Shown here: positions 2,810-33,692 of the stretch, in pieces
Position numbering within the stretch: position 1 is the first letter of the stretch
How the letters are laid out: each line of letters opens with the position of its first letter
Source of the DNA: Saprospiraceae bacterium
GTDB lineage: Bacteria > Bacteroidota > Bacteroidia > Chitinophagales > Saprospiraceae
Reading direction: 5' to 3'
Length of the DNA stretch: 33,772 bases
Assembly: GCA_027486765.1 (NCBI GenBank)
Contig: JAIXOO010000391.1
Coordinates: 1-33,772 of the forward strand
Position numbers and translations under genes: made by a program
The notes under the pieces: model-generated
Database searches by the model: none
Seen by the model: only the letters and a program-made list of their open reading frames with translations
Told to the model about the DNA's origin: nothing

Positions 2810-4813
2810 ATGGCTCTTAATGGTAAAGTTCCAGCAGGAAATTTAACGGAAAAGTGGACAAAGTACCGCGCTTCCATGCCACTGGTAGCTCCCAACAATA
2901 AAAGACGCCTTGACATCATCGTAGTTGGTTCAGGTTTGGCGGGTGCTGCAGCTGCAGCTTCGTTGGGCGAACTGGGCTACAACGTCAAGTGCTTCACTTT
3001 TCACGATAGTCCACGCCGGGCGCACTCGATTGCGGCGCAAGGGGGGATCAACGCGGCAAAAAACTACCGCAACGACGGCGATAGTACCTACCGCCTCTTT
3101 TACGACACCATCAAAGGAGGTGATTACCGCGCACGTGAAGCCAACGTCTACCGTTTGGCTGAAGTGAGCGCGAGCATCATCGACCAGGCTGTGGCCCAAG
3201 GGGTTCCTTTTGCACGCGAATACGGTGGCTTGTTAGACAACCGTTCTTTCGGTGGCGTTCAGGTAAGCCGTACTTTTTACGCACGGGGCCAAACCGGACA
3301 GCAGTTGTTGATTGGTGCTTACCAGTCTTTGTCGCGCCAAATTTCGCTGGGCTCGGTGGAGATGTACAACCGCCACGAAATGCTTGATGTGGTATTGGTG
3401 GATGGCAAAGCCCGCGGGATCATTGCCCGCAACCTGCTCACTGGCGAGTTGGAGCGCCACGCTGCCCATGCAGTAGTATTGGCAACGGGTGGTTATGGCA
3501 ACGTATTTTACTTGTCTACCAACGCGATGATGTGCAACGTAACTGCGGCCTGGCGTTCGGTACGTCGGGGTGCGCTGATGGCCAACCCTTGTTTTACCCA
3601 AATTCACCCTACTTGCATTCCCGTGAGTGGTGACTATCAATCCAAGTTGACCCTAATGTCGGAGTCGCTGCGGAACGACGGTCGGGTTTGGGTGCCCAAA
3701 AAACAGGAAGACGCAGCTGCAATCCGCTCCGGCCATAAAAACGCCCTGGACATCCCTGAAGAAGATCGCGACTACTTCCTCGAACGCCGTTACCCAGCTT
3801 TTGGTAACCTGGTGCCTCGCGATGTAGCTTCACGGGCTGCTAAAATTGCCTGCGACGAAGGTTTGGGTGTTGCGCCTACCGGCCTTGCTGTATACCTGGA
3901 TTTTTCTGCTGCCATTGAACGTTACGGTCGCTCCAAGGCTGGCGTGATGGGCCTCCACAATCCCGAGCACAAAAAGGTGATCGAATTGGGCCAAAATGTG
4001 GTAGAAGAAAAATACGGCAACCTTTTCGCTATGTACGAAAAAATCACTGGCGAGAACCCATATGTAATGCCGATGAAAATTTACCCAGCCGTACACTATA
4101 CCATGGGTGGCTTGTGGGTAGATTACAATCTGGAAACCAATATCCCGGGCTTGTTTGCAGCGGGTGAGTGCAATTTCTCTGATCACGGTGCCAACCGCCT
4201 CGGTGCCTCGGCTTTGATGCAAGGCTTGGCTGACGGCTACTTCGTATTGCCTTACACCATTGGCAACTTCTTGTCCAATGACATCCGTACGCCGAAGTTT
4301 GATCCAAATTCAGCGGAGTTTTTGCAAGCTGAGGCAGATGTAAAAGGTCGCATCGATCAGCTGATGGGTGTTCAAGGCAAACAATCGGTAGAAAGTTTCC
4401 ACCGCCGCTTGGGTAAAATCATGTGGGAAAAATGTGGCATGGCCCGCAACGCCGAAGGCCTGACCGCTGCTCGCCGCCAAATCCAGGAATTGCGTGAAGA
4501 GTTCTACAAAGACGTTTTTGTGCCCGGTAGCGCCACAGGGGACTACAATCCAGAACTGGAGAAAGCCCTACGGGTAGCCGACTTCTTTGAAATGGGTGAA
4601 TTGATGGTCGTTGATGCACTCAACCGCGAGGAATCCTGCGGTGGTCACTTCCGTGAAGAACACCAAACCGAGGAAGGTGAAGCCCTGCGCGACGATGCCA
4701 ATTTTGCCTACGTGGCAGCTTGGGCCTACAACGGATGGGATACCGATCCCGTGCTGAACAAGGAAGAACTGGTCTTCGAAAACGTAGAGCTCAAGAGCAG
4801 AAGCTACAAGTAA
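2810..4813 (+). CDS. sdhA: Succinate dehydrogenase flavoprotein subunit
   Basis: Catalytic subunit oxidising succinate to fumarate (or the reverse) with covalently bound FAD; cytoplasmic face of complex II. 667 residues, ATG at 2810. Visible features: Rossmann FAD motif [13 protein letters not shown] (38-50); covalent-FAD histidine H72 in [14 protein letters not shown]; substrate-site HPTCIP region; RDVASRAAK (arginine-bearing catalytic loop); [21 protein letters not shown] and [13 protein letters not shown] near the C-terminal part of the FAD domain; and a helical C-terminal domain ending in a [10 protein letters not shown] region. The length and the order C-A-B match Bacteroidota SdhA rather than the shorter proteobacterial form. 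The stop codon merges directly into a tandem 8-base repeat. Succinate dehydrogenase versus fumarate reductase cannot be settled by sequence alone. Confidence 0.96.
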
Positions 4814-4852
4814 AGTTGAGAAGTTGAGAAGTTGAGGAGTTGAGAAGTTTAG
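4813..4852 (+). repeat. Tandem octamer array, single arm, after sdhA
   Basis: Five contiguous 8-base units: AAGTTGAG three times, then GAGTTGAG, then AAGTTTAG. The first unit shares its first base with the sdhA stop codon. The AAGTTGAG unit recurs at 17489-17496 after nqrD, and the RRGTTnnn format recurs at 13117 and 18212. Here no inverted right arm follows; instead a pair of REP-like hairpins occupies the rest of the spacer. Confidence 0.85.
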
Positions 4853-4897
4853 AACGAGATAGCTCAATTTCCTCCTTTTGTCTTTAACCTAAGCCAA

Positions 4898-4956
4898 CCC
4901 ACGGATTCATCCGTGGGAGGCACCATAAAGAACCAGCCCATGACTTTAGTCGTGGG
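4898..4956. repeat. Pair of 20-base REP/IS200-like hairpins between sdhA and sdhB
   Basis: Hairpin 1 at 4898-4917 has arms CCCACGGAT / ATCCGTGGG. Hairpin 2 at 4937-4956 has arms CCCATGACT / AGTCGTGGG with one mismatched pair. They are separated by 19 bases. The same CCCRYGA...CGYGGG format occurs twice at 33567-33613. Such short, GC-ended hairpins are typical of REP elements mobilised by IS200/TnpA-REP transposases. No transposase is present here. Confidence 0.75.
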
Positions 4957-4971
4957 AGAAAAGGTAAGCCA

Positions 4972-13116: not shown

Positions 13117-13236
13117 GAGGTTCCAGGGTTCCAAAGTTCCAGGGTTCCAGGGTTTCTAGGGTTTCTAGGTTCCAAGGTTTCTAGGTTCCAGGGTTTCGGA
13201 CAACCTTGGAGCTTGGAACCCTGGAACTTGGAACCC
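13117..13236. repeat. Inverted octamer array between the MoxR gene and nqrA
   Basis: The left arm (13117-13197) has about ten units of 8-9 bases, such as AGGGTTCC, AAAGTTCC, AAGGTTTC and TAGGTTCC. A short core GGACAACCT follows. The right arm (13207-13236) has four units of 7-8 bases in the opposite sense (TGGAGCT, TGGAACCC, TGGAACT, TGGAACCC). Arms are unequal in length but complementary in register. The unit is the same as that at 18212-18302. Confidence 0.85.
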
Positions 13237-13304
13237 TAAAAATAACTGCTGTCGTGGATTTGCTCGAAAATATTTTTATGCATACTAGGAAAGAATATTT
13301 TTTT

Positions 13305-16768: not shown

Positions 16769-17473
16769 ATGGCTGAGACAATGACCAAAGAGGTCAAAGA
16801 AAAAGAAGAGCTGGAATGGTTTGGGCCCAAGGAGCGCAAGCTAATTACCGACCCGCTCAACGATGACAACCCGGTAACCGTACAAATCCTGGGCGTTTGT
16901 TCGGCATTGGCGGTCACCACCATGGTCAAACCTGCATTGATCATGGCCGTATCTGTAACTTTGGTAACGGGCTTTTCCAACCTCGTTATTTCACTGATGC
17001 GCAATGGCATTCCCAAACAAATTCGCATGATCGTCCAATTGGTGGTCATCGCGTTTTTGGTAACGGTGGTGGAGCAAGTGCTCAAAGCTTACAGCTACCC
17101 AGTATGGAAGCAACTGTCGGTTTTCATCGGCCTGATCATCACCAACTGCATCGTGATGGGGCGTTTGGAAGCCTATGCCATGGCAAATCCACCTTGGCGT
17201 TCCTTCCTGGACGGCCTGGGCAATGGTGCGGGTTATGGCATCATCTTGATTGTCATTTCCGTGATCCGGGAGTTTTTTGGCCGTGGTGCCATTCTGGGCT
17301 ATAAAATCCTGGGCGCAACGGACGAATTTTTACTCAATACCACGAAACACTGGTGGCTGAGCTGGTACCAGCCGAATGGCTTGATGGTGCTGCCCGCCTC
17401 AGCGATCTTTTTGGTGGGCATCATTATCTGGATTCAGCGTGCGCGCAATCCAAAACTGGTTGATGTATCCTGA
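16769..17473 (+). CDS. nqrD: Na+-NQR subunit D
   Basis: Membrane subunit, 234 residues, ATG at 16769. After a charged N-terminal extension of about 25 residues (KEVKEKEELEWFGPKERK) come six hydrophobic spans. Two conserved cysteines, C44 in LGVCSALA and C127 in TNCIVMGR, correspond to those that with NqrE hold the intramembrane iron or iron-sulfur centre. It is paralogous to NqrE (shared CSALA/CSFLA and NCIVMG/NCAILG phrases). The following spacer to nqrE is unusually long for this operon (122 bases) and contains an inverted octamer array. Confidence 0.95.
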   Translation: MAETMTKEVKEKEELEWFGPKERKLITDPLNDDNPVTVQILGVCSALAVTTMVKPALIMAVSVTLVTGFSNLVISLMRNGIPKQIRMIVQLVVIAFLVTVVEQVLKAYSYPVWKQLSVFIGLIITNCIVMGRLEAYAMANPPWRSFLDGLGNGAGYGIILIVISVIREFFGRGAILGYKILGATDEFLLNTTKHWWLSWYQPNGLMVLPASAIFLVGIIIWIQRARNPKLVDVS

Positions 17474-17480
17474 TTTTTAA

Positions 17481-17589
17481 ATGTTGAGAAGTTGAGGAGG
17501 TTGAGAAGGTTTAGGCTGCCGCGAGCGATATTGACAATGTCGCTCGCGGCAGCCTAAACCTTCCTAAACCTCCTAAACCTCCTAAACCT
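17481..17589. repeat. Inverted octamer array filling the nqrD-nqrE spacer
   Basis: Left arm: ATGTTGAG, AAGTTGAG, GAGGTTGAG, AAGGTTTAG (17481-17514). Core: a 14-base arm GCTGCCGCGAGCGA (17515-17528) and its exact complement (17540-17553). Right arm: CTAAACCTT then CCTAAACCT three times (17554-17589). The perfect inverted repeat covers 17506-17528 and 17540-17562 (23 pairs), with an 11-base loop that is itself partly self-complementary. The element starts eight bases after the nqrD stop and ends six bases before the nqrE ATG. Confidence 0.9.
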
Positions 17590-17595
17590 TTTAAA

Positions 17596-18204
17596 ATGGA
17601 CAATTTATTGAATGTCTTTATCAAGTCCGCCTTTATTGAAAATATGGTTTTGGCCTATTTCATTGGGATGTGTTCCTTTTTGGCGGTTTCCAAGTCGGTA
17701 AAAACTGCCATTGGTTTGGGTATTGCGGTGATCTTTGTACTGGCGCTGACCGTGCCCATCAACTGGGTCATCAGTGAATTGATCCTGGGGCCCAACGGGA
17801 TTTTTAAAACCGACCTGACCTTTTTGCGCTTTATTCTGTTCATTGCCAGCATTGCAGCCTCGGTGCAATTGGTGGAAATGGCGGTGGAGAAATATTCACC
17901 TTCCTTGTACAATGCCTTGGGGATCTTTTTACCACTCATCACGGTGAACTGTGCCATTTTAGGCGCAGCGCTGTTTATGGTGGCGCGTTCTTACAATTTC
18001 GCTGAGTCGACAGTTTATGGTATTGGCTCAGGTGTTGGTTGGGCACTGGCGATTGTAGCCATGGCAGCCATTCGGGAAAAAATCCGTTATTCCAACGTTC
18101 CTGCACCGCTGCGGGGCCTGGGGATTGCGTTCATCCTGACTGGTTTAATGGGGATGGCTTTTATGGCGCTGATGGGGATTAACCCGGCAACCTACATGCA
18201 ATAA
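17596..18204 (+). CDS. nqrE: Na+-NQR subunit E
   Basis: Membrane subunit, 202 residues, ATG at 17596. Six hydrophobic spans with the two conserved cysteines, C26 in GMCSFLAV and C118 in VNCAILGA, that share the intramembrane iron centre with NqrD. C-terminal [31 protein letters not shown] is the family end. The start codon lies six bases after the octamer array, so the region normally holding a ribosome-binding site is the end of the array plus TTTAAA. The next gene, nqrF, is separated by a second array. Confidence 0.95.
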
Positions 18205-18211
18205 CAAAGTA

Positions 18212-18302
18212 AAGTTCCAAAGTTCCAGGGTTCCAAGGTTCCAGGGTTCGGCAGCCGAGCCCTGGAACCTTGGAACTCAGGAACCTTGGAACCCTTAAAC
18301 TT
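18212..18302. repeat. Inverted octamer array filling the nqrE-nqrF spacer
   Basis: Five octamers on the left (AAGTTCCA, AAGTTCCA, GGGTTCCA, AGGTTCCA, GGGTTCGG; 18212-18251), loop CAG, then octamers in the opposite sense on the right (CCGAGCCC, TGGAACCT, TGGAACTC, AGGAACCT, TGGAACCC, TTAAACTT). Each left unit pairs in register with a right unit, giving a long imperfect hairpin 18212-18294 with 8-base periodicity. It starts seven bases after the nqrE stop and ends seven bases before the nqrF ATG. Confidence 0.9.
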
Positions 18303-33525: not shown

Positions 33526-33566
33526 GAAAAAAAGTTGGCCCATAATAGTTGATTATGGGAAGTTAG

Positions 33567-33613
33567 CCCATGAATTCATTCGCGGGGAATTAGCCCGTGA
33601 ATTTATTCGCGGG
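33567..33613. repeat. Pair of REP-like hairpins in the receptor leader
   Basis: Hairpin 1 at 33567-33586 (CCCATGAAT / ATTCGCGGG) and hairpin 2 at 33594-33613 (CCCGTGAA / TTCGCGGG), seven bases apart, both preceded by TAG. Same format and length as the pair at 4898-4956. They lie between the TPP aptamer and the receptor start codon, so they are part of the mRNA leader. Confidence 0.7.
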
Positions 33614-33692
33614 AAATCACCAGTCGAGGGGTTCGACGGTGTAATACCTTCGTGCACCTGGGGCTTGCCGCAAAGCAAGTTTGTCGAAGGTG

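Follow-up and report, generated by a model that had tools for sequence, protein, structure and literature searches.

A palindromic repeat of the MITE/ERIC-like kind nearly fills the nqrD-nqrE spacer of a Saprospiraceae bacterium and has counterparts at gene 3′ ends

Among the described repeats closest to the palindromic family reported here, which we have named KAG for its GTTKAG units, the ERIC sequences are about 127 bp in length and the STRR sequences of cyanobacteria are comparable short tandem heptamers. To our knowledge, the arms of ERIC, unlike those of KAG, are not made of 8- to 10-bp tandem units, and we know of no report of ERIC units being replaced at the same site. When compared with the STRR/heptamer class, for which direct tandem 7-mers alone would be expected, KAG was found to differ, as its units are 8 to 10 bp and its arms are inverted about a core. 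In the portion of PMC2229807 available to us, the ERIC (or IRU) elements of enterobacteria are described as imperfect palindromes that resemble KAG in size and intergenic location, are co-transcribed with their neighbors, and have no known transposase. The BrickBuilt MITE of Porphyromonas gingivalis, as presented in sections of PMC4596501, resembles KAG in that it is (i) found in Bacteroidota; (ii) composed of tandem repeats within a miniature element bearing inverted repeats; and (iii) always intergenic. It differs in its 23-nt units, its single direct array with small inverted ends, its 19 copies, and its distance of 49 to 591 nt from the nearest genes, whereas KAG abuts stop codons (PMC4596501, same sections). 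The TAACTGA heptamers of Beggiatoaceae, Cyanobacteria, and five Bacteroidetes likewise form intergenic 7- to 8-mer arrays that are absent at the same site in some close relatives; however, according to the excerpted text of PMC4679880, these are almost all direct and rarely indirect, are mostly near start codons, and are not described there as having a palindromic core. REP/REPIN sequences are, like KAG, dispersed palindromes that are common between unidirectional or convergent genes and near the 3′ end of the upstream gene, but they measure 20 to 40 bp, have one end tagged with GTAG or CGTC, and flank RAYT genes, with no repeated-unit arms described in the extract used (PMC3733652; PMC3116915 is a further reference on this system). 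Template switching, in the part of PMC8794818 at hand, is described as maintaining hairpins and could explain how the two arms of a hairpin come to change in concert; that account concerns RNA genes, whereas KAG elements are dispersed and intergenic. No description of the KAG element was found among the open PubMed Central papers listed; most subscription papers were beyond this scope, so the result is not proof of absence.

The window, by which we mean the whole 33,772-nt stretch of DNA that was analyzed, includes an operon of nqrA to nqrF, each gene of which matched its NCBIfam model above the curated cut-off (Table 1). An earlier note on this DNA had claimed that an inverted octamer-type element fills the gap between nqrD and nqrE. 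This was confirmed, as the TGA stop codon of nqrD (17471 to 17473) and the ATG of nqrE (17596) were separated by 122 nt, and the element was located at 17481 to 17592, with units of 8 to 10 bp arranged around a 28-pair stem. The distances that had been given from the element to the stop and start codons were right within one base. The inverted units described for the right arm were present, though as four rather than three copies of CCTAAACCT (starting at 17553, 17563, 17572, and 17581), and the perfect stem, reported as 23 bp, was found to be slightly longer, with 24 perfect Watson-Crick pairs (17505 to 17528 with 17540 to 17563), or 28 consecutive pairs in the predicted fold when one G-T/U pair is included, closed by a loop of 3 nt. 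Folding of positions 17471 to 17600 yielded −74.4 kcal/mol as RNA (z −13.2) and −47.4 as DNA (z −14.1), and none of 200 shuffled versions of this region reached the native stability. The CRISPR reading was rejected, as the units are contiguous with no unique spacers, and the microsatellite reading was rejected on anatomy, both in agreement with the earlier note. An intrinsic terminator, which had also been discounted there, was rejected with no terminator-like site detected in 17481 to 17592 by a scan that restricts loops and stems, and no Rfam match at the gathering score was returned for the window. The 7-mer TTTTAAA shared by both flanks may represent a target duplication.

Table 1. Positions in the window of the nqrD-nqrE element, its neighboring genes, and related arrays
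Feature	Position	Strand	Remarks
nqrD	16769..17473	+	TIGR01939 above cut-off
nqrD-nqrE spacer	17474..17595		122 nt, nearly all taken up by the element
Left flank TTTTTAAA	17474..17481		7-mer TTTTAAA common to both flanks
Left (5′) arm	17483..17515	+	Four GTT(G/T)AG units, spacing 8-9 (GTTGAG/GTTTAG)
Inner stem-loop	17505..17563		Innermost units and core GGCTGCCGCGAGCGA / TCGCTCGCGGCAGCC; 28 pairs, 3-nt loop
Right (3′) arm	17553..17589	-	CCTAAACCT units, four copies
Right flank TTTTAAA	17590..17596		Runs into nqrE start codon
nqrE	17596..18204	+	TIGR01940 above cut-off
GTTCCA-unit sister-family element, nqrE-nqrF spacer	18214..18292
Sister-family element upstream of nqrA	13118..13237		GTTCCA/GTTTCTAG units
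Single-arm array	4813..4854	+	AAGTTGAG x5, no core

The element had also been said to occupy the place of the nqrE ribosome-binding site. Its position is as described; however, this is no anomaly, since just 3 of 79 relatives have an SD-like motif ahead of nqrE. Elsewhere in the window, a gene for a succinate dehydrogenase/fumarate reductase flavoprotein was followed, directly after its stop codon, by the array of five AAGTTGAG units. Short CCCACGGATTCATCCGTGGG-type palindromes were observed behind this array (4890 to 4960), a type also present at C20:27495, and a 27-bp tandem repeat of 2.2 copies was located upstream of a minus-strand gene (33557 to 33617).

The genome from which the window derives (G000; 7.72 Mb in 514 contigs) was examined for further copies. 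BLAST returned at least 79 element matches when both strands were counted, with scores computed for 40 of the 220 candidates, and a pattern for the right arm, allowing at most two mismatches, was detected 147 + 129 times, compared with 5 + 6 for a reversed control. Because other copies recur in the genome, the nqrD-nqrE element is not due to chance, and the outcome of a solitary element, which the earlier note had held out as a refutation, did not occur. The copies were found to share a common plan of about four units (AGTTGAG-AAGGTTGAG-GGAGGTTGAG-AAGGTTTAGG) leading into GGCTRCCGC(GA)GCGA..., a loop that is often GACAATGTCCTTGTC, and then the reverse, such that a conserved core hairpin (GGCTRCCGC...GCGGYAGCC) is bordered on each side by about four inverted 8- to 10-bp GTTKAG units. 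The median length was 119 bp across the 57 copies with both core ends, and the copies varied in unit number and spacing. With ends that form terminal inverted repeats, and being short, dispersed, non-coding, and of many copies as in MITEs, the element is a dispersed palindromic repeat that is MITE/ERIC-like, the likeness to ERIC being one of description. When comparing the two arms within these 57 copies, the innermost unit (GTTGAG or GTTTAG) was found to be equal on the left and right in 52, compared with 29.1 ± 3.6 after shuffling, and the first two unit spacings matched beyond chance. The states of units 2 to 4 did not match between the arms, and the unit number was equal in both arms in 31 of the 57 copies compared with 30.3 by chance. 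In some cores at L049, L051, and the orthologous G002 and G003 spacers, a different palindrome like CACTGAGCGNAGYCGAAGTG, which we take to be widespread in environmental bacteria, was observed in place of the usual sequence.

Matches to the element were detected in 8 of the 60 genomes searched, including its own. Full elements were present in three congeners (G001, G002, and G003), while only arm-like matches were found for G004, G009, G019, and G033 among the matches listed and in the loci read. One of the congeners, G002, is presumably Haliscomenobacter hydrossis DSM 1100, and our use of the genus name Haliscomenobacter rests on that identification. Spread by plasmids was rejected, with no element match in 72,556 plasmid records (a set that may not include records close to this genome), as was spread by phages, for which 41 viral contigs matched a core 15-mer and none had the array or core context.

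The genomic location of the repeats was determined in a survey of 424,373 bp, composed of the window and five long contigs already known to carry hits (390,601 bases), with home-made gene calls. This survey held 20 KAG elements and 8 elements of the GTTCCA sister family, of which 27 were intergenic relative to the called genes (22 co-directional, 2 convergent, and 3 divergent). Further arm units were identified in the same survey, including GAAAAGT/GAAAAAT, AGCGAA, TTAGGT, CACAAAG, CGCAGAG, and GATGA, and a core like GGCTACCGC...GCGGTAGCC was found combined with different arms (KAG, GAAAAAT, GATGAAA, and others). Inverted repeats of any unit were detected in 76 of 230 spacers of at least 40 bp, compared, at the same score, with none of these 230 after dinucleotide shuffling and with a single one among 230 coding stretches. 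When seven cases of an unrelated 125-bp repeat were left out, the spacers with an inverted repeat accounted for 22 of 39 convergent, 43 of 143 co-directional, and 4 of 48 divergent spacers; thus, inverted repeats favor gene 3′ ends. Of the 18 co-directional KAG/GTTCCA inverted repeats, 17 started within 12 nt after the upstream stop codon, compared with 9.0 ± 1.7 (maximum 14) in 2000 trials of random placement. The other co-directional repeats followed this trend, with 11 of 23 within the same distance compared with 5.5 ± 1.5 (maximum 12) at random. For 4 of the 15 KAG copies in co-directional spacers, the upstream gene ended inside the element, at the TGA of a GTTGAG unit. This preference for 3′ ends could be a mere avoidance of promoters. 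A purine-rich 5′ arm was observed in 20 of 23 KAG/CCA repeats, 30 of 46 others (P = 0.054), and 5 of 7 copies of the unrelated repeat, and was not used as evidence.

Orthologous spacers were compared to determine the fate of individual elements, using conserved flanks to pair 60 G000 spacers with those of G001, G002, and G003 (two also with G004) and excluding from the counts any spacer assigned to the unrelated 125-bp repeat. Among 116 spacer pairs, a repeat was present in both members of 38, in G000 only in 16, in the other genome only in 10, and in neither in 52 (pooled Fisher P = 2e-9, although the pairs share G000). Tested genome by genome, with no N in any spacer used, the counts for both, G000 only, other only, and neither were (i) 13, 5, 1, and 18 with G001 (P = 3e-5); (ii) 11, 5, 4, and 14 with G002 (P = 0.014); and (iii) 14, 4, 5, and 20 with G003 (P = 2e-4). 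At C214:27508, what looked like an empty site in G001 was a run of N and was dropped. The unit labels of the 38 shared pairs were the same in 19, different in 16 (4 of these with one side unlabelled), and lacking on both sides in 3. Even between two genomes with flanks of 88 to 97% identity, 5 of 14 shared sites were differently labelled, with one more unlabelled in both. The hairpin is kept at these orthologous sites with its units changed, as seen at C214:11045 (KAG in G000 and G001, GTTCCA in G003, and GTTCG in G002), C20:32923 (GTTCCA in G000 and G003, KAG in G001, and GTTCG in G002), and C302:8293 (TTAGGT in G000 and KAG in G001 and G003). Other sites differed in occupancy, with KAG at C241:98360 in G000 and G003 and absent in G001 and G002, and KAG at C302:9275 in G000 only among the genomes compared. 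In G003, the spacer L292 (G003:C142), orthologous to L080 1944-2008, held a very long GAAAAGTG array to the left of one hairpin, where G000 had a short unrelated palindrome.

These comparisons bear on the alternative that KAG is an ordinary old MITE family, inserted once by a now-lost transposase and inherited vertically, with divergence by slippage and ectopic gene conversion between copies, and with the other unit families as later, functionless, independent insertions into a tolerated spot. The size, palindromic form, and intergenic placement of the elements, one clean insertion, and a lack of RNA-strand bias fit this account, as does the somewhat greater identity of orthologous than paralogous copies (means of 0.69, n = 10, and 0.60, n = 23; P = 0.04), although two of the ten orthologous values were spoiled by over-long extraction and the comparison was not relied on. 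However, independent insertions should rarely hit a spacer that is occupied in a sister genome, contrary to the counts for G000 and G003, and the unit type was always changed in both arms of an element together. We therefore regard a purely old MITE family as doubtful, while keeping it as a serious candidate.

Evidence for insertion was found at L080:6798-6916 in G000, where a 119-bp element was positioned between two CTTT tetramers that form a 4-bp direct repeat. The empty site reads CATGCTTTTAGG in G003 and CATGCTTTTATAG in G001, and G002 was also without the element. In G001 and G003 the two genes at this junction overlap as ATGA; the G000 element splits the overlap, with the upstream frame ending in ..VLKES and a TGA stop inside the element, compared with ..VLKA where no element is present. 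Therefore, a copy can insert where two genes meet and provide a stop codon from its own sequence, with the downstream start left unaltered. Together with the other copies and their variable unit number and spacing, this empty site shows that the earlier suggestion of a mobile or self-expanding element was largely right. A general target duplication was not detected over the 57 KAG copies, with shared flank 4-mers at 8 copies compared with 5.9 after shuffling (P = 0.21), shared 5-mers not significant (P = 0.06), and shared 6-mers at 2 copies compared with 0.33 (P = 0.04), a weak signal. Movement as a REP/REPIN family by a RAYT (Y1) transposase was considered, as Y1 genes were present in all five genus genomes searched (38 matches) and GTAG was found in the 3′ strand of the core (GCGGTAGCC). 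However, GTAG was not constant, with GCAG in many copies including that of the window, and the full element was found at none of the 30 RAYT loci examined from the 38 matches; only L143 of G004 had an array nearby, at a distance of about 0.4 kb, which consisted of three units and no core. Moreover, the GTAG or GCAG of KAG is inside the core of an element with the median length given above, and not at the end of a 20- to 40-bp palindrome. A RAYT-driven origin is thus considered very improbable.

The nqrD-nqrE site itself was compared among 16 of 18 loci, less some entries (G019 and G007) in which the nqrD end was not covered. KAG was present at this site in G000, G001, and G002 with different inner sequences, such that the base-for-base conservation that the earlier note had named as a refutation was not seen, while the G004 spacer was 36 nt without the element and the outgroup G006 also had none. 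In a wider set of 80 named NqrE loci, 79 were parsed for this spacer, and its median length over these other genomes was 22 nt. The earlier note had suggested a structure that sets the ratio of NqrD to NqrE/F, and an attenuator or processing structure dedicated to this ratio would be consistent with the very stable hairpin inside the operon and with its retention in G001 and G002. Nevertheless, the same element was found in many unrelated spacers, neither G004 nor the vast majority of the 79 other genomes carries it between nqrD and nqrE, and no T-tail terminator was predicted inside it. A switch dedicated to the nqr subunits is therefore unlikely, and we give this purpose very little credence; the element may still have an incidental effect on nqrE/F expression.

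Four of the 79 spacers were found to contain inverted 7- to 8-mer arrays of their own units: GTTATGA (L169), GGGATGA (L173), ATGGTGA (L180), and ACGTGTTC (L218). A stricter scan for periodic inverted repeats identified 9 in 5 of the 80 loci and 17 in the G000 survey, compared with none in the shuffled survey and none in 50 kb of E. coli K-12. Since such repeats occur in 5 of 80 NqrE loci, the habit is not confined to the genus, though most loci are without it. The presence of other units in the same spacer of four other genomes, and the combination of one core type with different arm units, would be expected if the arrays were made afresh at gene ends by slippage and template switching, with each lineage writing its own units and KAG being the commonest product in this genome; template switching is described as creating and mending hairpins elsewhere in the part of PMC8794818 consulted. 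Counter to this, the KAG core and unit order are common genome-wide, which needs dispersal from a founder, and the clean insertion was of a whole element. Such local origin of each array is accordingly judged unlikely.

Overall, the nqrD-nqrE element is probably, though by no means certainly, a copy of a non-autonomous palindromic repeat of the MITE/ERIC-like kind, itself one of a wider set of 3′-end hairpins that can be exchanged for one another. KAG copies would insert at or just behind gene 3′ ends, where the outermost unit can supply the stop codon, and families of the same plan (GTTCCA, GTTCGA, GTTGAA, GAAAAGT, TTAGGT, CACAAAG, and GATGA) would occupy and replace one another at one site. 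Movement may be by some enzyme or by recombination, units may grow and be lost by slippage, and one arm may be copied to the other by template switching. Counted against this explanation were the failure to find a responsible transposase in a search that covered RAYT loci, the lack of a general target duplication, and the mismatch between arms in unit number and in the states of units 2 to 4. At the RNA level, where we can only infer a function, a long hairpin at the transcript 3′ end may block 3′ exonucleases or weaken read-through into the next gene. No sign of selected RNA pairing on the transcribed strand was found in the co-directional repeats, since G-U mismatches (58) did not outnumber A-C mismatches (52; P = 0.63), a balance that fits DNA-level arm copying by template switching or neutral decay as well as function.

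These repeats are unusual in that their position and hairpin form persist longer than the sequence of their units. As a broader and more tentative proposal, gene 3′ ends of Haliscomenobacter and some other Saprospirales might carry hairpin sockets, in which position and inverted-array form are inherited while the units of each individual element are rewritten, both arms changing simultaneously. The 7- to 10-mer palindromic arrays might then be built and replaced by one shared process, be it insertion at a target, template switching from arm to arm, or selection that favors a hairpin regardless of its sequence, with each lineage having its own unit set. Few cases have been documented in which position and form are conserved while the sequence is replaced, and searches for functional non-coding DNA that depend on alignment would miss them. 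These repeats provide a tractable natural system for asking whether selection or DNA copying maintains gene-end hairpins, and by what route short-unit palindromes spread when no transposase is visible.

Other dispersed repeats were also observed in these genomes. The unrelated inverted repeat of about 125 bp, as at L061 5562-5690 (G000:C241), had dozens of listed copies of 81 to 98% identity in G001 to G004, and has moved recently, given that no copy is present at the orthologous sites of G003 and G001. A repeat of about 168 bp at L067 862-1029 (G000:C214) was up to 96% identical in G003, and another at about 19306-19602 of L073 (G000:C20) had many listed matches, chiefly in G002 and also in G001.
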